The position numbers were made by a program, and so were the translations under genes. From a virus, in IMG/VR virus record IMGVR_UViG_3300009181_006726, positions 1 to 20,992 of that record: 20,992 bases of DNA. The stretch is one strand, 5' to 3'. Below are positions 1-20,258 of the stretch, one piece after another (position 1 is the stretch's first letter; every line of letters begins with the position of its first letter). The notes beneath the pieces were generated by a model. That model was not told the origin of the DNA. It did not search any database and saw only the letters and a list, made by a program, of their open reading frames with translations.

Positions 1-1394
1 CCTGAGCTACCAGATGTTCCACTAGATCCTGAAGTTCCAGAAGAACCGGAAGTACCTGAGTTACCACTTGAACCAGATGTACCACTTGATCCAGAAGAAC
101 CTGAGCTACCACTTGTTCCTGAAGAACCTGATGTACCGGATGAACCTGAACTGCCTGAAGTTCCAGAGTTACCAGAAGATCCAGATGTTCCACTTGAACC
201 AGAAGATCCAGATGTTCCACTTGAACCAGAAGAACCTGATGTACCGCTTGATCCTGAAGAACCGGATGTTCCGCTTGATCCTGAAGAACCTGAGCTACCG
301 CTTGTTCCTGAAGAACCGGATGTTCCACTTGAACCTGAAGTTCCAGAAGATCCGCTTGATCCTGAAGAACCAGATGTTCCTGACGAACCAGAAGTTCCTG
401 AGCTACCTGAAGTACCACTTGATCCAGAAGAACCTGACGTTCCTGAGCTACCAGAACTTCCACTGGATCCAGATGTACCACTTGAACCAGAAGTACCTGA
501 ACTGCCTGAAGTTCCAGAAGAACCAGAAGTTCCACTTGTACCACTTGAACCTGAAGTTCCATCGACTCCGCTCGTACCGCTAGACCCAGACGTACCATCT
601 ATTCCACTCGTACCGCTAGACCCAGACGTACCATCTATTCCACTCGTACCACTAGACCCAGACGTACCATCTATTCCACTCGTACCACTAGACCCAGACG
701 TACCATCTATTCCACTTGTACCGCTAGACCCAGACGTACCATCTATTCCACTTGTACCGCTAGACCCAGACGTACCATCTATTCCACTCGTACCACTAGA
801 CCCAGACGTACCATCGACTCCGCTAGTTCCTGAACTACCTGAAGTACCATCGACTCCGCTAGTTCCTGAACTACCTGAAGTACCATCGACTCCGCTAGTT
901 CCTGAACTACCTGAAGTACCGCTTCCGCTGGTTCCAGAGCTTCCGCTTGAACCTGAAGAACCTGAAGTACCGCTTCCACTAGTACCTGAGCTACCGCTTG
1001 TACCCGATGAGCCACTTGTTCCGCTTGATCCTGAAGTTCCATCTACTCCGCTCGTTCCGGAAGAACCACTAGTGCCAGAGCTACCTGATGTACCGCTCGA
1101 TCCACTAGTACCAGAAGTCCCAGCTGCACCTGCTTGATTTACCCATTTTGTGCCATCATAATATAGAACGTCGCCACTATTTAGAACTCCAAGAGTTACA
1201 TCACCTAAATCATCTAAATTGACAACTGCGCTTCCGCCTCCTTCGATAATGGTGACAACACCAAACTTGTCCATTTTACAGAGCTTGCCTCCATTATCGA
1301 GGTCAAACCCAATAAAATATGCATTGTTTGCTATCTTAGTGTAATCTATTAGAGAAAAGCTAATAATTGGATAAACAAATCCAGTTTGCGTCAT
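1..1394 (-). CDS. Collagen-like fibre protein (C-terminus beyond the window)
   Basis: The visible 464 residues begin with about 85 residues of a fibre-like head, including the motif DVLYYDGTKWVN that is common before collagen-like stretches in phage fibres. The rest is Gly-X-Y repeat running off the left edge. The repeats are GTS/GSS triplets with a block of 12-residue units G(I/V)DGTSGSSGTS, and they contain no proline. Two GTSGSGTSG interruptions break the triplet register while the reading frame stays open. The ATG at 1392-1394 was chosen because the late-promoter-like ATAAATAA lies 16 bases upstream; the frame stays open to a stop at 1458-1460, but without another ATG. Probably a trimeric adsorption fibre or virion fibre. 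Confident for the collagen-like call, less so for its exact place in the particle. Confidence 0.85.
   Translation of the reverse strand, partial: MTQTGFVYPIISFSLIDYTKIANNAYFIGFDLDNGGKLCKMDKFGVVTIIEGGGSAVVNLDDLGDVTLGVLNSGDVLYYDGTKWVNQAGAAGTSGTSGSSGTSGSSGTSGSSGTSGVDGTSGSSGTSGSSGTSGSSGTSGSGTSGSSGSSGSSGTSGSGTSGSSGTSGVDGTSGSSGTSGVDGTSGSSGTSGVDGTSGSSGTSGIDGTSGSSGTSGIDGTSGSSGTSGIDGTSGSSGTSGIDGTSGSSGTSGIDGTSGSSGTSGIDGTSGSSGTSGVDGTSGSSGTSGTSGSSGTSGSSGTSGSSGTSGSSGSSGSSGTSGSSGSSGTSGSSGTSGSSGTSGSSGSSGSSGTSGSSGTSGSSGTSGSSGSSGSSGTSGSSGSSGTSGSSGSSGTSGSSGSSGTSGSSGNSGTSGSSGSSGTSGSSGTSGSSGSSGSSGTSGSSGNSGTSGSSGTSGSSGTSGSS
559..918 (-). repeat. Ten tandem 36-bp coding repeats inside the collagen-like gene
   Basis: Units start at 559, 595, 631, 667, 703, 739, 775, 811, 847 and 883, exactly 36 bases apart. 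Each encodes a 12-residue unit, GIDGTSGSSGTS or GVDGTSGSSGTS on the minus strand. The six central units (595-810) are almost identical; those at 811-918 use different synonymous codons. This suggests recent expansion by slippage or unequal recombination and probable copy-number variation between relatives. Confidence 0.95.
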
Positions 1395-1464: not shown

Positions 1465-2328
1465 ATGAAAGTATATCGCGCAGCAAGCTTTGCTTCTCTT
1501 TACAAATACAGTCTCATGGATCTTATACAGAATCCAGAGTATGAGACCCGACCTAGAGAGCTAAGCGTAAAAGAAAATACGAATGTGGCTCTAGTATTAG
1601 AGAATCCATTATCATGTCTTTATAAAAATCCAGTTCGTTCTTCTCAGAAAAAATATGTTGCTGCAGAGATGTTATGGTATTTTATGGGCAGAAACGATGT
1701 AGCATTTATCAAGAAGTACGCTAAGTTTTGGGAATCTATTCAAAATGAGGATGGAACTGCCAATTCGTCGTATGGTAATCTACTCTTTACTCAACTTAAC
1801 GAACATGGATTTAGCCAGTATCAATGGGCGTTAATGTCTTTACAAAAGGACAAAGACTCGCGCCAAGCTATTATGCATTTTAATTTACCGAGTCATCAGT
1901 ACATAACAAATAAGGATTTTGTATGTACTATGTATGGTATCTTTCAGATTAGGAATAATCGTCTTAATTTTACAGTCTCGATGAGAAGTAATGATGTGGT
2001 TTGGGGATTACCAACAGATGTTGCGTTCTTTACTGTGCTACAGAATCACCTATGTAAGCAACTTCGTTCTACCTATCCAGATCTGCGGTTGGGTACTTAC
2101 ACTCACATTGCAAACTCATTTCATATTTATGAACACCATTTTGATCTAATCAATCGAATGTTAGATGTTTCATTCGAAGGAGATTCTATTCCTGGAGTAA
2201 ACGAATTACTCGTTGATTCTTGTGGAGACCCAACTAAAGCTATGCGAGATCTTTTTTATAATTTTAGTAGCTCTGACTTTACATCAACAGATCCTCTGAT
2301 AAGTTGGATTCTTGAAAATATCAAATAA
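1465..2328 (+). CDS. Thymidylate synthase-family enzyme with a dCMP-type active site
   Basis: This 287-residue protein has the thymidylate synthase fold signatures: DSRQA at 131-135, catalytic Cys154 in DFVCT, RSNDVVWGLP at 174-183 and the FHIYEHH region near 219-225. Two positions depart from dTMP synthases. The usual Cys-His is Cys-Thr, and the Asn that reads the uracil base (Asn177 in E. coli, 31 residues after the Cys) is Asp185. From memory, T4 dCMP hydroxymethylase gp42 has the same CT, MRSNDVV and Asp at the same spacing. The enzyme therefore probably acts on dCMP, making 5-hydroxymethyl-dCMP or 5-methyl-dCMP. The dCMP deaminase gene downstream is also compatible with dTMP synthesis, and T4 carries both activities. 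Family confident, substrate inferred. The start follows an A/T-rich leader. Confidence 0.88.
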   Translation: MKVYRAASFASLYKYSLMDLIQNPEYETRPRELSVKENTNVALVLENPLSCLYKNPVRSSQKKYVAAEMLWYFMGRNDVAFIKKYAKFWESIQNEDGTANSSYGNLLFTQLNEHGFSQYQWALMSLQKDKDSRQAIMHFNLPSHQYITNKDFVCTMYGIFQIRNNRLNFTVSMRSNDVVWGLPTDVAFFTVLQNHLCKQLRSTYPDLRLGTYTHIANSFHIYEHHFDLINRMLDVSFEGDSIPGVNELLVDSCGDPTKAMRDLFYNFSSSDFTSTDPLISWILENIK

Positions 2329-2331
2329 TTT

Positions 2332-2559
2332 ATGAAACACCCTATGATTATCCTAATAGTAAAAGTGGCGGCTGTCTTTTTGGTTGCTGCACTGTGCTAC
2401 ATGACATATTATTCATGTCATGTAGATAAAGTGGCTGGGTACGAGATCAACTATCGACAGTGGTTAGGAATAACTATTATTTCTACTCTTCTTTTTCACA
2501 AACCTACCGAACAACCTGAAAAATTAAAAAATGACAGTAAAGGACCTCAAATACCATAA
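2332..2559 (+). CDS. Small membrane protein, unknown function
   Basis: A 75-residue protein with a strongly hydrophobic segment at about residues 5-27 and a second, shorter one at about 44-55, followed by a polar, Lys/Glu-rich tail. It starts three bases after the stop of the thymidylate synthase-family gene. Its 3' end overlaps the first 29 bases of the dCMP deaminase gene in another frame, which suggests one transcript with coupled translation. I recognise no family. A host-membrane role is possible but unsupported. Confidence 0.6.
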   Translation: MKHPMIILIVKVAAVFLVAALCYMTYYSCHVDKVAGYEINYRQWLGITIISTLLFHKPTEQPEKLKNDSKGPQIP

Positions 2560-2950
2560 GACCTATTTAAAAATGGCCTGTGAGTGGTCGTCTCTTTCCT
2601 GCTGTAATAAGAAGAAGGTTGGCGCGATTATCGTGAAGGACGGCATGATCATATCAGACGGCTTTAATGGTACTCCTAAGGGCTTCCTAAACGATTGCGA
2701 GGACCTAAATGGCAATACTTATTGGTATGTTTTGCACGCAGAAGCAAATGCAATCCTAAAGGTTGCAAAGTCTTCACAAAACATAGAGGGTGCAACTCTC
2801 TATGTGACTATGTCCCCATGTAGAGAGTGTTCAAAACTGATAGTACAGGCAGGAATCAAAAGAGTGATTTATGCTGATGAATATAGAGATGTCGCAGGTC
2901 TAGCGATCTTACGTGAAGCGATGATCGATGTATTAAAAATGGAATTATAA
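2531..2950 (+). CDS. Deoxycytidylate (dCMP) deaminase
   Basis: This 139-residue zinc enzyme of the cytidine/dCMP deaminase family hydrolyses dCMP to dUMP. The zinc and catalytic motif HAEANA is at residues 69-74, with Glu71 as proton shuttle. The second metal motif SPCREC is at 95-100 (Cys97 and Cys100). The N-terminal VGAIIVKDG and GFNGTP motifs are typical of dCMP deaminases. The ATG lies inside the end of the upstream membrane-protein gene, after a GAAAAATTAAAAA leader. It shares an operon with the thymidylate synthase-family gene, so both draw on the dCMP pool. In T4-like phages this enzyme supplies dUMP for dTMP synthesis and is usually controlled by dCTP and dTTP. Confidence 0.93.
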   Translation: MTVKDLKYHKTYLKMACEWSSLSCCNKKKVGAIIVKDGMIISDGFNGTPKGFLNDCEDLNGNTYWYVLHAEANAILKVAKSSQNIEGATLYVTMSPCRECSKLIVQAGIKRVIYADEYRDVAGLAILREAMIDVLKMEL

Positions 2951-3349
2951 ATGGAAGACAGACAAGTGTCAATCGTTTTTGTACGGGAATACCGCAATTT
3001 TATCGGTGCCTTTAATAAAAAGAGCAAAGAAGACTATGTGCTCAATGTTAGTAAGATAATAAAAGACAAGTTTAAGACGAAATTTATCATTCCAAATAAA
3101 GTGCAGTCTTTCCTGCTTAATTACGAGATCAAAAAACTCTTAGACAAAGCAATCAATATTAAAAATAAAAAATACAAGAGAGTTATCTACTTAAACTCTA
3201 ATCTTTCGTCTTCGATAATCTTAAATACGATTTCTTTTATTGAAGAAGAATACACTAATCTTACTTTTACTTATCACCTAATTGAACCTAAGTCTTCTGG
3301 TGAAGATGAAATTAGCGATATTGAAAATCTAGAAAAGATCATAATATAA
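2951..3349 (+). CDS. Hypothetical protein, last gene of the nucleotide operon
   Basis: A 132-residue Lys/Ile-rich protein whose ATG directly follows the dCMP deaminase stop codon, so it belongs to the same operon. It appears to alternate short hydrophobic beta strands (VSIVFVREY, RVIYLNSN, LTFTYHLIEP) with helices, which suggests a small alpha/beta fold, and it ends in an acidic tail. I see no Walker A or metal motif and recognise no family. The strong terminator at 3351-3375 follows immediately. Confidence 0.75.
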   Translation: MEDRQVSIVFVREYRNFIGAFNKKSKEDYVLNVSKIIKDKFKTKFIIPNKVQSFLLNYEIKKLLDKAINIKNKKYKRVIYLNSNLSSSIILNTISFIEEEYTNLTFTYHLIEPKSSGEDEISDIENLEKIII

Positions 3350-6780: not shown

Positions 6781-7572
6781 ATGCCTGAACTTGCAGAGAT
6801 TAAAATAATGTCAGAATATATCACGTCAGTCTGTAAAAATCACGACTTTTGGTCAATTGGAACTTCACCAGAAGTTTCAAAGCGCTTGGGAGTAGTGCAG
6901 CCATCTAATTTACAGATGTTTTCCATCTCGGCTGAGGCCAGGGGCAAAGAATTGCGTCTTATTCTCTCTTCTGGCGCAGACATATATACACTGTCTGTTT
7001 CGATGGGCATGTCAGGATATTGGGTTTTTGGCGATCGTGACTCTAAACCCAAACATAGTCACTTAATCTTCAATACTATCGATAAAAAGGCGCTTTTTTT
7101 AGTTGATGTGCGTCGTTTTGCTAAATGGAAATGGGGAGACTGGTCTCCAAATAGAGGACCATGTCCAGTAAAGGAGACTAGTCTATTTAAAACTAATGTG
7201 ATAAATAGCCTAAACAAAAAAGTCTTTTTAAAAGCAATTCATCTTCTCCTGATGGATCAAAAATATTTCAACGGTATCGGTAATTATTTGCGTGCCGAAA
7301 TCCTCTATCTAGCAAACCAAGATCCTTTTGAATCTGCACGTGAAGCAATCATAAATAATCCTGTGCTCTTAGATTTGTGCACCCAAGTTTCATATGAAGC
7401 GTATATGATTGGAGGAGGACAGCTTAAGGATTGGAAAAATCCATTTCAAGTGCCAAAAAATGGATTTTCTGACTGGATAAAATGTTATGGCAAGGCAGAG
7501 CATTCTATTCTCGACGCAAACGGACGTACTTTATGGTATTCAAAATCACAACTTAAAGATAAAAATGACTGA
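6781..7572 (+). CDS. Fpg/Nei-family DNA glycosylase with degenerate zinc finger
   Basis: This 263-residue base-excision repair enzyme would remove oxidised bases and cut the abasic site. Catalytic Pro2 and Glu3 are present in MPELAE, where most Fpg proteins read MPELPE. Lys56 in ARGKEL matches the conserved active-site lysine. MGMSGY (75-80), DVRRFAKW (109-116) and the helix-two-turn-helix LLMDQKYFNGIGNYLRAEIL (156-175) are clear. The C-terminal finger keeps the hairpin and GRT (248-250) but only one of four zinc cysteines (Cys235); the usual YCPxCQ reads WYSKSQ. It is therefore likely a zincless-finger enzyme, as in NEIL1 and a mimivirus Nei. It heads the plus-strand run and overlaps the next gene by 8 bases. 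Confidence 0.92.
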   Translation: MPELAEIKIMSEYITSVCKNHDFWSIGTSPEVSKRLGVVQPSNLQMFSISAEARGKELRLILSSGADIYTLSVSMGMSGYWVFGDRDSKPKHSHLIFNTIDKKALFLVDVRRFAKWKWGDWSPNRGPCPVKETSLFKTNVINSLNKKVFLKAIHLLLMDQKYFNGIGNYLRAEILYLANQDPFESAREAIINNPVLLDLCTQVSYEAYMIGGGQLKDWKNPFQVPKNGFSDWIKCYGKAEHSILDANGRTLWYSKSQLKDKND

Positions 7573-7843
7573 AATTAAAAATAGAACAAAACGCGAGAAC
7601 TTTGCAATGGACGCAGTGCATAAGCAGCTGGACATTGTTGGCATCGATCACTCTGTTTTAGAAACTGATCGTGAAGCATGGTTTAGTAACAACACTATGA
7701 CCATGGAACAACATGCCGAATGGAAAATATGGTTTATTGCCGAATCTCGAAAGGTTTTTAAGATTACTAAAAAAATGGCAGAACGCGAGTTTTTATTTTT
7801 TGATCTAAGCTATGGATTGAGACTGAACGACTCCTCTAGCTAA
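7565..7843 (+). CDS. Hypothetical protein, paralogue of the 13028-13342 gene
   Basis: 92 residues from the ATG at 7565, which overlaps the glycosylase stop by 8 bases; a longer in-frame start at 7487 would lie deep inside the glycosylase gene and is rejected. The protein shares with the 104-residue protein at 13028-13342 the order QLD...G, a Trp-Phe strand, EQH..W, Arg/Lys, K..AE..F...DL.(Y/W)GL. The two are diverged duplicates. No catalytic motif is obvious and I recognise no family. A small hairpin with a T-run follows. Confidence 0.78.
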   Translation: MTEIKNRTKRENFAMDAVHKQLDIVGIDHSVLETDREAWFSNNTMTMEQHAEWKIWFIAESRKVFKITKKMAEREFLFFDLSYGLRLNDSSS

Positions 7844-7861
7844 AACTGATAGCTTTTTTTT
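7838..7861 (+). terminator. Weak rho-independent terminator or attenuator
   Basis: Stem AGCTA/TAGCT around a 7-base loop, followed by eight T, overlapping the stop codon of the 92-residue gene. The stem is only 5 bp, so read-through into the helicase gene is likely. Confidence 0.5.
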
Positions 7862-7878
7862 AGTAGATAATACTTACA

Positions 7879-9471
7879 ATGGCAGAAATCCAATTGGAGT
7901 TTACTCCTCGACACCAACAAGAAGAAATACTCCAGTTTACTAAAGACTCAATTTCTTCTGGCAAAAAATTTGTGATCATCGATGCGCCGACTGGAGTTGG
8001 AAAATCATATTCTGCCATCATGATCGCTGATTGGTATCGTAAAGAAATCAACAAAAAAGCCAGGGTAGACATTGTCACCAATACCAAGCTCTTACAGGAT
8101 CAATACATCAGAGACTTTAGTTTTGCAGCCAATCTAAAAGGTAAAAACAATTATTGGTGTCGTCGCAACAACATGGGATGCGGCGATGCACAGATCTTAA
8201 ACAAGGCAGCTGATAAAAAATGTGAAGTGTGTCCTCATAAGATAGCACAATCACAATTTATTCGAAATCCTTTAAGCCTAACCAACTTTCACCTTATTAC
8301 ATCATACTCGATGTATTCTCCAGAGTTGATGGCCGATCGTAATTCAAAGTTATTAATAATCGACGAAGCTCATGCATTCGAAGAGGTGTTTTGTGACTTT
8401 ATTGCTTCAGTTTTTTCAGAAAGAAGTTTAAAGCAGTTCGATATTTGGCAGAAGTGGATGGAAAAGGATCTAGACAATATTACTTCAATATCTGAGCTTG
8501 CTGAATGGGTGTCATCAATCGTTACTCCTATACTTAATAGTCGACTTATCGAATTATTAGATGAAGCAAAGGAAACTAGACAAAGAGCTAAGCGTCTTGA
8601 CCTAATAAAAAAAGCGGATCATATCGATAAATCAGTTTGCAAGTACAACCGTTTTATCAATGATAAGAAAAATTACGTTAGTAATTGGACTTTTGAAAAG
8701 GATTTAGATCAGTATGGAAAGACCAGAATCTTGGTAGAGCCTATTTGGGGAAACATTTATCTTAAGGAAATGTTTTGGGATAAGTACGATCATGTTATTT
8801 TTATGTCGGGCACAATATTAGATCGTCAGCTCTTTTCATTTATCGTTGGAATCGATGAAGATGAGTCTACTTACTTAGCTCTTCCTTGCCCTTTTGCAGC
8901 AGAAAAACGCCCAGTTGTTTACTTAAAGTTTGGAAAAATGTCTTATTACAATAAAAAAGAATCTTTTGCAAGAGCAGTTCCAATATTGGAAAAAATCTTG
9001 GAAAAGAATGTTAATAATAAAGGCATTATTCATACTTCAAATTATGAGTTTAGTAATTGGATAAAATCTGCAATCAAGGATAACCGACTCTTGTTTCACG
9101 ATACTGCAACTCGAGAAAAATCTCTTGAAGAACATCTTAGTTCAAAACATGAAACAGTATTAGTTTCTCCATCGATGATTAATGGTGTAGACTTAAAGGA
9201 CGAATTGTCGAGATTTCAGGTGATTCTTAAAGTTCCTTTTCCAAATTTAATGAGTACTAAAATCAAAAAACGTTTAGAAACTAGACCAGATTGGTATAAT
9301 TGGAAGACTCTAATTGATCTATTACAAGCATACGGTAGATCAATTCGAAACGATGATGACTGGGCAGAAACATATATATTAGATGAATGCTTTGATCAAA
9401 TATTAGATAAAAAGAATGTTCCACCGTATTTTATGGAGGCACTTAAGATAAAAAAATTAGCAAAAAAGTAA
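7879..9471 (+). CDS. Fe-S cluster DNA helicase, XPD/DinG-like (SF2)
   Basis: A 530-residue ATP-dependent helicase, probably 5'-3' and acting on single-strand-containing DNA as family members do. Walker A APTGVGKS is at 36-43, the Walker B DEAH box at 162-165, and motif VI QAYGRSIR at 483-490. Between Walker A and DEAH are four cysteines (94, 101, 115, 118), the expected ligands of the 4Fe-4S domain of XPD, DinG and FancJ. The VPFPNL phrase before motif VI is also typical of DinG-like proteins. The stop codon is directly followed by the ATG of the topoisomerase subunit, so the two are cotranscribed. To my knowledge T4 has no such enzyme. Confidence 0.92.
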   Translation: MAEIQLEFTPRHQQEEILQFTKDSISSGKKFVIIDAPTGVGKSYSAIMIADWYRKEINKKARVDIVTNTKLLQDQYIRDFSFAANLKGKNNYWCRRNNMGCGDAQILNKAADKKCEVCPHKIAQSQFIRNPLSLTNFHLITSYSMYSPELMADRNSKLLIIDEAHAFEEVFCDFIASVFSERSLKQFDIWQKWMEKDLDNITSISELAEWVSSIVTPILNSRLIELLDEAKETRQRAKRLDLIKKADHIDKSVCKYNRFINDKKNYVSNWTFEKDLDQYGKTRILVEPIWGNIYLKEMFWDKYDHVIFMSGTILDRQLFSFIVGIDEDESTYLALPCPFAAEKRPVVYLKFGKMSYYNKKESFARAVPILEKILEKNVNNKGIIHTSNYEFSNWIKSAIKDNRLLFHDTATREKSLEEHLSSKHETVLVSPSMINGVDLKDELSRFQVILKVPFPNLMSTKIKKRLETRPDWYNWKTLIDLLQAYGRSIRNDDDWAETYILDECFDQILDKKNVPPYFMEALKIKKLAKK

Positions 9472-16743: not shown

Positions 16744-17364
16744 TTATTGAAAATATTTTTCAATGCGTCTACTTAGTCTTACTCGAGGATCGTCTATAGT
16801 TCGGCCTACCTCTTCATATTTTAGGATAAAACCAAAACTTAAAAATATTCTACGCGATTTAAAAGGATCTGTCCAGTGTTTATAAAGAGAAGCTTCAAAA
16901 CAATACAAATCAGTTTCTTGAATTGGCACATTATTTTTATCAATATGCATAATATAATCTTCTGAGAGTACACTCAGGTTACATTTATAGTTGATATAAC
17001 CTTCGATTGCTGCATCATAATGAGGATCAATCTTTCCACCACTATTCATGTCTACTGCCTGTAGAAATATGTGATCTTTTGAAATCTTTAAAGTTTCTGC
17101 AATTCTATCAATTAATTTAATAATGTTTCCTGGAACAGGCGTGCGGTTGATTGCAGAGATCGATTGAAACTTTGTAATATAATTAGTATAGCTAGTGTCG
17201 GCAATATCAAAAATAATGGATTTTCCATTTATGGCTTTAGTCAACTCACTAAGGTGATGATTCGGCGAGCCTGGCTCAATAGTTAAACTATCGACCCAAG
17301 CCTTTATTTCTTCAGTTTCGCTTCGACTGACAAATCCTTTGAGTAACTTATAATCCTGGACCAA
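16744..17364 (-). CDS. 2-oxoglutarate/Fe(II)-dependent oxygenase (prolyl-4-hydroxylase-like fold)
   Basis: A 206-residue protein with the iron-binding triad and co-substrate arginine of this superfamily: His115 and Asp117 in KIDPHYDAAI, distal His163 in LYKHWTDPFKSRRIFLSFGF, and Arg171 or Arg172 placed to hold 2-oxoglutarate. Members hydroxylate proteins, nucleobases or small molecules; the substrate here is unknown. It lies among late fibre genes, which favours a virion-protein or host-surface target, but that is inference. The start is TTG at 17362-17364: an in-frame TAA two codons upstream and the lack of a nearby in-frame ATG leave little choice. It overlaps the upstream gene by 17 bases. 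Confidence 0.78.
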   Translation of the reverse strand: MVQDYKLLKGFVSRSETEEIKAWVDSLTIEPGSPNHHLSELTKAINGKSIIFDIADTSYTNYITKFQSISAINRTPVPGNIIKLIDRIAETLKISKDHIFLQAVDMNSGGKIDPHYDAAIEGYINYKCNLSVLSEDYIMHIDKNNVPIQETDLYCFEASLYKHWTDPFKSRRIFLSFGFILKYEEVGRTIDDPRVRLSRRIEKYFQ

Positions 17365-17694: not shown

Positions 17695-18639
17695 TTAGAA
17701 ACGAGTGATTGAAGCGATCGGAACCCCTTCTGCTGCATCGATAATTAAGTCTTTAACAAAGGTCAAATAATATGGGGCGACAGCTCCGCCATTGTCAGTG
17801 TCCATTTTAAATAGCCCAAAATAGTAATTGACTTCAGGATCTGACCATACTGCGTCTACGTATACTACACCATTATGCTCAACTACTCCAAGTACTGCTT
17901 CGATTGCTGTAATATTAATGTTAGATTCACTTGGCGAAGGGGCTAATATGTTAGAATAGTCAAACGTGCCCGAGACAATGTCAAATGGGCCAGTCATAAA
18001 TCCTCCTGGAAAACCAGTATTTATTGCAACTGCCCAGGTGGCTCCTTCATAAAGAAATAGGTACCTAAGTATATAACCAGTTACCCCTTCATCCACTTCT
18101 GAAACTTCAGTTGCCGTTGCTACTTCTGGTGAAAGTGGGTCTAGTTCAATTCGAACAATACTACTAATTGCTTTTTTATATAGGTTATCAACGTAGATAA
18201 ATTTACCGTCTCCTTCATAATAAAGAGAAGAGGCTCCTTTTGTAGTAAAATCTGAAATATTGTTCTCAATAAATGTCAATTCTCTAGTTGTCCTGTCAAT
18301 TCGAATAAAGTAAATCTCGCCTTCAAAGTCTAATATTGCATATAGGAATCCATCGTCTGTGTTTAAGGTAATTTGAGTAATATCAGGAAATGGTGGCTCA
18401 TAATTATACGGCCAATTTTCTTCTCCTCGATTTAAGTTATAGATAAGACCGTCTATTCCTACTCCATATAGACCAGTCAATTGGTCTCCGCCGCCTCCAG
18501 CAGCAGCGCCAGGAGCATTTCCAGCCCTGTTTCTAGCTCTAGTTGCTCGAACTGCCTGTTCATATAGAGCCTGCTCTTCGAGCTGGCGTCTGATTGCTAG
18601 TTGTTCTGGGCTCTCGGAACCCCAATTGATATACGACAT
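17695..18639 (-). CDS. Modular virion fibre protein with a beta-rich, propeller-like receptor region
   Basis: This 314-residue protein has a charged helical N-terminus (residues 1-44) identical to that of the gene at 19107-20258, then an Ala/Gly linker (about 45-51). The remaining 260 residues are a string of beta strands, with phrases such as GLYGVGIDGLIYNLNR, DGFLYAILDF and YEGDGKFIYVDNLYK that recall beta-propeller blades. The shared head probably docks on the same virion site, with different distal domains as binding modules. A late-type ATAAATAA element lies 22 bases before the ATG, overlapping the stop of the HAD gene. Confidence 0.72.
   Translation of the reverse strand: MSYINWGSESPEQLAIRRQLEEQALYEQAVRATRARNRAGNAPGAAAGGGGDQLTGLYGVGIDGLIYNLNRGEENWPYNYEPPFPDITQITLNTDDGFLYAILDFEGEIYFIRIDRTTRELTFIENNISDFTTKGASSLYYEGDGKFIYVDNLYKKAISSIVRIELDPLSPEVATATEVSEVDEGVTGYILRYLFLYEGATWAVAINTGFPGGFMTGPFDIVSGTFDYSNILAPSPSESNINITAIEAVLGVVEHNGVVYVDAVWSDPEVNYYFGLFKMDTDNGGAVAPYYLTFVKDLIIDAAEGVPIASITRF
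18509..18639 (-). repeat. Near-identical 131-bp duplication, copy 1 (fibre N-terminus)
   Basis: Matches 20128-20258 at 127 of 131 positions by direct reading, without gaps. It encodes residues 1-44 of the fibre and ends exactly at the start codon. Similarity falls off in the Gly/Ala linker. Confidence 0.95.
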
Positions 18640-18661: not shown

Positions 18662-18669
18662 TTATTTAT
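18662..18669 (-). promoter_or_regulatory. Late-type promoter element ATAAATAA for the 314-residue fibre
   Basis: Minus-strand AATAAATAATTAAAATAA, core 22 bases before the start codon at 18639. Shares the ATAAATAA-N2-AAAATA pattern with 20277 and 5373. Confidence 0.6.
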
Positions 18670-19126
18670 TTGCTTCTTGTAAGTATTCTTTTAACTCACG
18701 TAAGGAATCTTTGGTCATGCCTATTTTGGCATCTTCTATAAATACAAACCTTTCTAGCTTTTTTAAATCTAGGTCGTCAATTGCCACCCAAGTAAATACG
18801 ATATTATCGTCAAGCCATTGTGTTATCTCTTCTACTCTTAGTCTTGCTAAGTCGTTTAAAGATGTTATCTCACTGGATTTGTCTGGAGTATATCCAATAG
18901 GCGATTTTATTACACCTTGGCTTATATAGAAGTCTTTCATTTCTTCCAGTGGTACCCATCGCTTCCAATCAGAGGAAACTACAATCTCACAATCTGTTTC
19001 CTTTATTAAATTATTTATGTTATCAACCGCCGCTTTATCAAAGTCTTGAAGTTCCGGTTTACCAGTTTGCCAGCACACTGGCTCTAATCTCATTACTCCT
19101 TGATGATCAAGAAATAGTATCTTCAT
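18662..19126 (-). CDS. HAD-superfamily protein with altered catalytic motif I
   Basis: A 154-residue protein of the HAD fold, resembling the HAD domain of Swiss-Army-Knife RNA-repair proteins. Motif I reads FLDHQGV, where the family has DxDGV: nucleophile Asp7 is kept, but the acid/base Asp two residues on is Gln9. Motif II is IVVSSDW (about 48-54), IGYTP (77-81) is also typical, and the late acidic motif is AIDDLDL (114-120). Losing the second Asp should weaken or change phosphatase activity. It lies between two fibre genes and overlaps the end of the Hint-containing fibre gene by 20 bases, so it is probably cotranscribed with it. Confidence 0.8.
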   Translation of the reverse strand: MKILFLDHQGVMRLEPVCWQTGKPELQDFDKAAVDNINNLIKETDCEIVVSSDWKRWVPLEEMKDFYISQGVIKSPIGYTPDKSSEITSLNDLARLRVEEITQWLDDNIVFTWVAIDDLDLKKLERFVFIEDAKIGMTKDSLRELKEYLQEANK

Positions 19127-20258
19127 ATACCGGCTCGTATTTCTTCTGAATGAATCCTAGTGTCCATTCTGCAAGTTCTTTAATAGTAGGACGAATATAC
19201 GCTAATTCACCTGGAGATTTAGTAAGGAATCCTTCAGATACGTTAACAAGTGGCTGTTCACCTAATCTAAGGCCAGTGTAGTATTCTTCTGGTATACCTT
19301 TAAACTCTTTAATAGAAGTTATATTTCTTTCTTCTTTGACAAACTTCATATCTTTTATAAGGTATAAGTTGTTTAGTCTTCTAGAAGTAAGCATACCTTC
19401 TGCGAATATGTTTAGGTGCCTATTAGTTACAACATTGTATATCTCGGCAAACTCACCTTCTTCTTTACCTACTATTGTAACTATCTCACCGCGGTCGGTG
19501 AACGTTCTTGTTCCTATAGGAGTATGTTCATTAGGGATTGCATAAGTAAACTCTCCTTTATCTAAGTTAAATATTCTATGTCCACCGGTGTGATCAAGAT
19601 GTCCAGATATACCTAATTTAGATCCATCACTAAATAGTATATTGACAGATGGTGTCTTCACCGGATTCATTATCCATAGAGGTTTAGCAGAATCAAATTG
19701 AGCATCGTCAAAGTTCCATACTAAAAGGTTATCTTCATAAGATATATCTTCTATGTTCTTTCTACTTCCGTCAAAAATAGTTATCTTAGTTCCCTTAACA
19801 AAACATGGTAACTCAAAGTAAAGATTAGTTCCATATCCTGTACCTATTGCATTAGTTGCATATGATCTTACATATATGTAATCGTGCGGATTGGGTATTA
19901 TATAGGTCTGGTCAAATGTTCCTACTGCAGTTCCCGTACCTAATATTTTGTTATCTAATATAGTAGGATTCTGGCTTGTACTCCATACTATACCTCTTTC
20001 AAGTATTGCTGAGCCACCATCACTTGTAATTGTTCCCTGCACATCTGCACTACCACCGGCTAGGTTTCCATAAGTGTCAGTAGTTATAGTAGGTATGGTA
20101 AGTACATTATATCCTCCGCCTGCAACTCCAGGAGCATTTCCAGCCCTGTTTCTAGCTCTAGTTGCTCGAACTGCCTGTTCATACAGAGCCTGCTCTTCGA
20201 GCTGGCGTCTGATTGCTAGTTGTTCTGGGCTCTCGGAACCCCAGTTAATATATGACAT
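19107..20258 (-). CDS. Modular fibre with fibronectin-like and Hint domains
   Basis: 383 residues in four parts. Residues 1-44 are the shared virion-docking head. About 53-148 is a fibronectin-like module (ERGIVWSTSQNPT, YVRSYATNAIGTGYG) of a type frequent in Bacteroidetes surface proteins. About 152-292 is a Hint (hedgehog/intein) domain: Cys152 in LPCFVKGTKITI, SRKNIEDIS, a His-rich GHLDHTGGHRIF middle, and the terminal YNVVTNRHLNIFAEGMLTS. A C-terminal domain of about 90 residues follows. The usual terminal His-Asn of inteins reads Thr-Ser, so splicing is unlikely; N-terminal cleavage at Cys152 remains possible. It carries its own late-type promoter element and its end overlaps the HAD gene. 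Confidence 0.83.
   Translation of the reverse strand: MSYINWGSESPEQLAIRRQLEEQALYEQAVRATRARNRAGNAPGVAGGGYNVLTIPTITTDTYGNLAGGSADVQGTITSDGGSAILERGIVWSTSQNPTILDNKILGTGTAVGTFDQTYIIPNPHDYIYVRSYATNAIGTGYGTNLYFELPCFVKGTKITIFDGSRKNIEDISYEDNLLVWNFDDAQFDSAKPLWIMNPVKTPSVNILFSDGSKLGISGHLDHTGGHRIFNLDKGEFTYAIPNEHTPIGTRTFTDRGEIVTIVGKEEGEFAEIYNVVTNRHLNIFAEGMLTSRRLNNLYLIKDMKFVKEERNITSIKEFKGIPEEYYTGLRLGEQPLVNVSEGFLTKSPGELAYIRPTIKELAEWTLGFIQKKYEPVYEDTIS
20128..20258 (-). repeat. Near-identical 131-bp duplication, copy 2 (fibre N-terminus)
   Basis: Matches 18509-18639 with four substitutions, two of them in the last few codons at the gene start (AAT/AAC and ATC/ATT-type silent changes). It encodes the same 44 residues in the Hint-containing fibre. 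Confidence 0.95.

Follow-up and report, generated by a model that had tools for sequence, protein, structure and literature searches.

The gene at positions 1465..2328 (plus strand) of the window, an IMG/VR virus fragment of 20,992 bp, very probably encodes a T4 gp42-type dCMP hydroxymethylase of the ThyA superfamily, an activity predicted here from alignments and a structural model. The original prediction had proposed that the 287-residue product (ATG start; PF00303, 4.5e-21) hydroxymethylates or methylates dCMP instead of making dTMP. Active-site residues, tree, and fold all supported that choice, and Asp151/Ser101/Tyr103 together with Thr155 narrowed it to the hydroxymethylase. It is likely that the virion DNA carries 5-hydroxymethylcytosine (5hmC) or a derivative. 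The enzyme type is already known; the 1465-2328 protein adds a member from a T4-replisome environmental phage, encoded by a gene of the kind that automatic annotation labels thymidylate synthase (TS).

An IMG/VR scan with the 1465-2328 protein found 273 related stretches; 80 loci were retrieved from these. The clade set comprised 57 sequences, with each distinct protein counted once and with the LR756500 and window proteins included; clade relatives were about 51 to 69% identical to the window protein. A wider alignment of 27 sequences, with identity down to 30 to 34%, took in phage G, Xp15, and lactobacillus, enterococcus, and Agathobaculum phages. A scan of genome contigs gave a single metagenome bin, labelled Bacteroidetes; the contig may come from a phage and be wrongly binned.

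The active site was examined residue by residue (all codons on the plus strand). Catalytic Cys154 (codon 1924-1926) and Asp185 (2017..2019) are 31 positions apart and aligned without a gap to Cys148/Asp179 of T4 gp42 and Cys146/Asn177 of E. coli ThyA (EcTS), as originally predicted. The T4-like motifs held as well: DFVCT corresponds to DFMCT in T4, and MRSNDVV is identical in T4. The proposal that an Asp at the Asn177 site selects cytosine agrees with published work (PMC8670742, PMC5175136, and PMC6400193). Cys154 and Thr155 (1924..1929) align with EcTS Cys146-His147, and position 147 and one other residue gave the best separation of modified from unmodified contigs in published work (PMC8670742).

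Hydroxymethylation has a signature of its own, defined in the T4 ternary complex as an acidic residue three before the catalytic Cys (T4 Asp145) plus Ser94-x-Tyr96 (PMC6400193). The window protein aligned at both sites, with Asp151 (1915..1917), the putative activator of the water that becomes the hydroxyl, and with Ser101-Ser102-Tyr103 (1765..1773); position 101 is P or K in ThyA versus Ser in the clade. TS carries Leu at the Asp145 position, and the T4 mutant D145N forms no 5-hydroxymethyl-dCMP (5hm-dCMP) (PMC6400193). As read from the alignment, Asp151, which was overlooked in the first reading, is the most informative residue. Glu68 (1666..1668; T4 Glu60, EcTS Glu58) was invariant in the alignments, and its equivalent acts in water-mediated protonation of folate (PMC6400193).

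Nine residues (D185, D151, S101, Y103, C154, T155, R174, S175, and D177) did not vary across all 57 distinct sequences of the clade; because this invariance was maintained at about 51 to 69% identity, the signature residues are far from chance. In the 27-sequence alignment, D151, C154, T155, R174, S175, D177, D185, H220, and Y222 were all invariant and Ser101 was nearly so. Ser175 and Arg133 aligned as a dCMP-type pocket, not the CMP-type pocket of MilA, a CMP 5-hydroxymethylase (PDB 5jnh and 5b6d) in which Ala176 and Lys133 accompany CMP preference (PMC5175136). The second phosphate arginine is replaced by Gln134, as it is by Gln in the SPO1-like and phage G enzymes. The C terminus differs from that of TS, with the closing tail absent, as it is from T4 gp42.

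Comparison with control enzymes showed that residues 151, 155, and 185 separate dTMP synthases, dUMP hydroxymethylases, dCMP hydroxymethylases, and probable dCMP methylases. The dTMP synthases (E. coli, PX29 td, Moonbeam, pT24, and the second ThyA of two relatives) had Leu151/His155/Asn185, the dUMP hydroxymethylase types (SPO1-like and Ab20) had Asp151/Asn155/Asn185, and AXL1 gp63 had Asn151/Pro155/Asp185; T4-like gp42 and the 1465-2328 protein shared Asp151/Thr155/Asp185. The AXL1 protein was the single methylase-type control and a stand-in for that of the related 5-methylcytosine (5mC) phage XP12, which was not in the collection; the AXL1 authors deduced 5mC from the kinship of the phage and its resistance to restriction. 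The window protein thus differs from ThyA at two positions (Asp185 rather than Asn and Thr155 rather than His), from the SPO1 gp29 type at Asp185 (Asn at 177 in that type), and from XP12-like methylases at Asp151 (a non-acidic residue three before the Cys in those enzymes). Because D151/T155/D185 sorts with T4-like gp42, the residues point both to cytosine as the substrate base and to hydroxymethylation. The three-residue reading therefore makes cytosine-modified phages recognisable in metagenomes.

The same residues bear on whether the enzyme is instead a dCMP methylase, in which the methylene intermediate would be reduced to yield 5-methyl-dCMP, as inferred for XP12-like phages. Asp185 alone is compatible with this, given that an Asn-to-Asp change converts ThyA to a dCMP methylase (PMC8670742). 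However, Asp151, Ser101, Tyr103, and Thr155 are all present, the inability of T4 D145N to form 5hm-dCMP ties the acidic residue to hydroxymethylation, and the closest matches are T4 gp42 and MilA. Because Asp151/Ser101/Tyr103 is retained and the XP12 relative, on a distant branch, has Asn151/Pro155, a hydroxymethylase is favored and a methylase is quite unlikely.

Sequence and structure searches were consistent with the residue analysis. The best phmmer matches in the PDB were MilA (1.3e-22) and T4 dCMP hydroxymethylase (dCH; 6.6e-20), with true TS at 2.4e-11 or weaker, and a PDB profile search likewise ranked MilA and T4 dCH above TS. The score against the NCBIfam TS equivalog (60.9 bits) fell far short of the cut-off of 327. 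An AlphaFold (AF2) model of the protein had a pLDDT of 93.8 and a pTM of 0.92, and Foldseek searches with it returned MilA first (6.8e-19) and then T4 dCH (1.8e-14), ahead of TS, although one TS, 6auj, nearly equalled T4 dCH. By PF00303, the AF2 model, and Foldseek, the protein has the ThyA fold and belongs to that superfamily.

In a maximum-likelihood tree of 48 rows, the window clade (support, 99/97) joined T4-like gp42 and the Xp15/Acinetobacter enzymes at 95/99, and the dTMP synthases stood apart at 98/97. When the analysis was repeated without 16 signature columns and four long branches, the join with T4 gp42 and the Xp15 homologues was kept at 95/96 and is therefore no artefact of the residues under test. 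The tree fixes this join and not the branching order inside it, where a meeting of long branches was flagged between the Xp15 pair and the T4 group. AXL1 gp63 lay far from the window clade, and the dUMP hydroxymethylases formed another branch. A position within dUMP-using ThyA, which would have spoken against the original prediction, was not found; the clade groups with T4 gp42.

On this evidence, the protein is extremely unlikely to be a conventional dTMP synthase whose active site happens to be unusual. The family names in the libraries do say thymidylate synthase, dTMP synthesis would also be consistent with the neighbouring dCMP deaminase, and searches of several fragments, a 176-kb relative included, turned up no second TS. 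This reading conflicts, however, with the invariant Asp185, Asp151, and Thr155, the missing C-terminal TS tail, the tree position outside ThyA, the NCBIfam TS scores far under the cut-off, and the separate ThyA or ThyX present in relatives.

Next to the hydroxymethylase gene are three short genes on the plus strand. A small hydrophobic protein (2332..2559, 75 aa; homologue in 60/82 loci) lies between the hydroxymethylase and a 139-aa dCMP deaminase (2531..2950; PF00383, 1.6e-25; phrog_174, 2.3e-50) with HAE and PCxxC zinc motifs. The deaminase was found downstream of the hydroxymethylase on the same strand in 73 of the 77 loci with enough sequence. It is followed by a conserved partner ORF of 132 aa (2951..3349), present in 77 of 82 loci, which belongs to no family and for which no Pfam match and no confident PHROG match was found. 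Its AF2 model (pLDDT, 83.7) was weakly P-loop-kinase-like in Foldseek (T4 PNK and PFK-2; best E, 4e-3), and a Walker A motif was not found in its sequence. This partner could be an unknown component of the modification pathway. Relatives carry gp47, gp46, gp41, uvsX, and gp43-like genes upstream and topoisomerase genes downstream, a T4-type replication set. At the edge of the window, a truncated ORF (3-1394, minus strand) consists mostly of collagen-type, fibre-like GTSGSS/GVDGTSG repeats, and in 29 loci a homologue of it is the immediate upstream neighbour of the hydroxymethylase.

The deaminase had been called an ambiguous neighbour, and it indeed does not decide the matter alone, as T4 has one too. 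The T4 dCMP deaminase makes dUMP for the separate T4 TS. The conserved pairing in 73/77 loci also raises a two-step route to hydroxymethyluracil (hmU), in which 5hm-dCMP would be deaminated by the co-operonic enzyme to 5hm-dUMP for DNA. We consider this very unlikely: as in T4, dUMP for a separate TS normally comes from a dCMP deaminase; in LR756500 the deaminase is elsewhere and a beta-glucosyltransferase lies near the hydroxymethylase instead; and the dUMP hydroxymethylases that reach hmU directly are on another tree branch.

The dCMP hydroxymethylase reading leads to the following scheme, for which we infer the reaction, the kinase step, the incorporation, and the final base. Cys154 would attack C6 of dCMP while Asp185 binds and protonates the cytosine ring, and the one-carbon unit would come from methylene-tetrahydrofolate. 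Water activated by Asp151, with Ser101/Tyr103, would then add to the exocyclic methylene, giving 5hm-dCMP and tetrahydrofolate. The product would be phosphorylated and enter phage DNA in place of cytosine, where the modified base, bare or carrying an added glycosyl or carbamoyl group, would probably serve in evasion of host nucleases. The adjacent deaminase would supply dUMP for a distinct thymidylate synthase encoded at another place in the genome. No biochemistry on the window clade was found in the literature.

The window, a 21-kb fragment, is too short to display its own pathway genes, and the kinase, dCTPase, TS, and glycosyltransferase were accordingly sought in relatives. A separate thymidylate synthase, which the original prediction had named among the genes to look for, was found in six related genomes: a ThyA with Asn at the 185 position in the 207-kb and 139-kb relatives, a second ThyA in phage G, and ThyX in the 119-kb relative, LR756500, and Xp15. 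Searches of the 176-kb relative and of shorter fragments, all of them incomplete, found no such TS. In LR756500, an insert of about 300 aa, which looks like an intein carrying an HNH-type nuclease, interrupts the ThyX gene (LR756500.1, 276524-278152).

A dHMP kinase, named alongside the TS, did not emerge: searches for the T4 gp1 dNMP kinase by phmmer and phrog_139 gave nothing convincing in relatives, with matches at the P-loop level only, and thymidylate kinase (PF02223) gave nothing convincing in the records searched, phage G excepted. No homologue of denA, denB, or alc was found in four large relatives; in known T4-like phages, the presence of denB and alc follows that of gene 42 (PMC2993671). 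A T4 gp56-type dCTPase/dUTPase was found in 8 of 15 environmental relatives. This is weak support for a hydroxymethylase, because the gp56-type enzyme occurs in almost all T4-like phages, with or without gene 42 (PMC2993671).

The prospect of a glucosyltransferase, also raised in the original prediction, was realized in part. One clade relative, LR756500, has a T4-type beta-glucosyltransferase 1.4 kb downstream of the hydroxymethylase (PF09198, 6.7e-23; phrog_7922, 2e-52), and none of known DNA type was found in the other members searched. Besides T4 itself, PF09198 matched only LR756500 and the T4 alpha-glucosyltransferase (AGT) family PF11440 matched only phage G in the records searched. Outside the clade, homologues with the Asp/Thr/Asp residues lie near a beta-glucosyltransferase in ATCCB and VPE25, near AGT-like genes in phage G, and near a carbamoyltransferase in Xp15 and an Acinetobacter phage. 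The last pairing has been shown to give 5-carbamoyloxymethylcytosine (PMC8670742). Among 18 records, carbamoyltransferase PF02543 was found in Xp15 only and not in the window clade. Maribacter phage Molly_1 (1449-3942 of its locus) has an annotated beta glucosyl transferase adjoining a TS homologue; because that homologue has Asp151 but Asn185, the sugar acceptor might be hydroxymethyluracil rather than 5hmC.

GT4 (PF00534) and GT2 (PF00535) genes were rejected as specific 5hmC transferases, being scattered and non-specific. In the 207-kb relative, in which hydroxymethylase, ThyA, and dCTPase are present, the searches found GT2-type genes but no known DNA-type alpha- or beta-glucosyltransferase or carbamoyltransferase. 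In several near relatives, a GT2-type gene (6931-8028 in locus L007) lies about 3 to 5 kb upstream of the hydroxymethylase; it is placed between the hydroxymethylase and gp46 in L006, L007, and L008, and homologues of it lie upstream in L011, L016, and L059 (GT2 family membership was tested in L007 only). The gene is on the gp46 side of an adjoining collagen-like fibre gene, and its product may have either DNA or the fibre as its target. Gene 42 occurs without glucosyltransferases in some T4-like phages (PMC2993671). It is possible, but doubtful, that the DNA of a widespread uncultured T4-replisome phage lineage contains 5hmC bearing a so far undescribed decoration.

Among characterized systems, T4 gp42 (PDB 1b49 and 6a9a) shares the catalytic set (E, W, S-x-Y, D-x-x-C-T, MRSND, and D), the lack of a TS C-terminal tail, the tree branch, and, in window relatives, the T4-type replication neighbourhood. 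It differs in identity (about 25%), in length (246 aa versus 287 aa for the window protein, which has an extra C-terminal part), in having Arg124 where the window protein has Gln134, and in gene context, the window gene being in a conserved dCMP deaminase operon that lies near gp46/gp47-like genes in relatives. MilA, the best PDB match by both sequence and fold, shares Asp186, the Asp three before the Cys, and the Thr after it, and differs in the CMP-preferring pocket described above. The homologue in LR756500, a 462-kb uncultured huge phage, is 51% identical, nested in the clade, and has the same signatures; it differs in the nearby beta-glucosyltransferase, the lack of an adjacent deaminase, and the intein-like insert in ThyX. 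Xp15 gp36 and the MetaGPA TS homologues linked to 5hmC carbamoyltransferase share Asp at 177, Thr at 147, Asp151 (read in Xp15), and an adjoining dCMP deaminase, and Xp15 gp36 differs in identity (34%) and in its carbamoyltransferase neighbour.

5hmC-type DNA is thus predicted for a large uncultured T4-like lineage, and it would affect restriction and CRISPR sensitivity and recovery by methods that need unmodified DNA.

Several other genes of the window were noted. An Fpg/Nei-like DNA glycosylase (6781-7572, plus strand; PF01149, 6.9e-13), found in 39 of 82 loci, is of interest as an enzyme of base excision, given that the phage is predicted to have modified cytosine. A 206-aa product (16744-17364, minus strand) was considered as a 2-oxoglutarate dioxygenase from an HYD motif and a distal H/R seen by eye and was set aside, with no family or PDB support. 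On the minus strand, the proteins of 17695-18639 and 19107-20258 have almost identical N termini (MSYINWGSESPEQLAIRRQLEEQ...) and then diverge, the latter continuing into a Hint-like domain (weak PF05203). An HAD_SAK_2 domain protein (18662-19126, minus strand; PF18143, 7e-22) belongs to a family tied to RNA repair.
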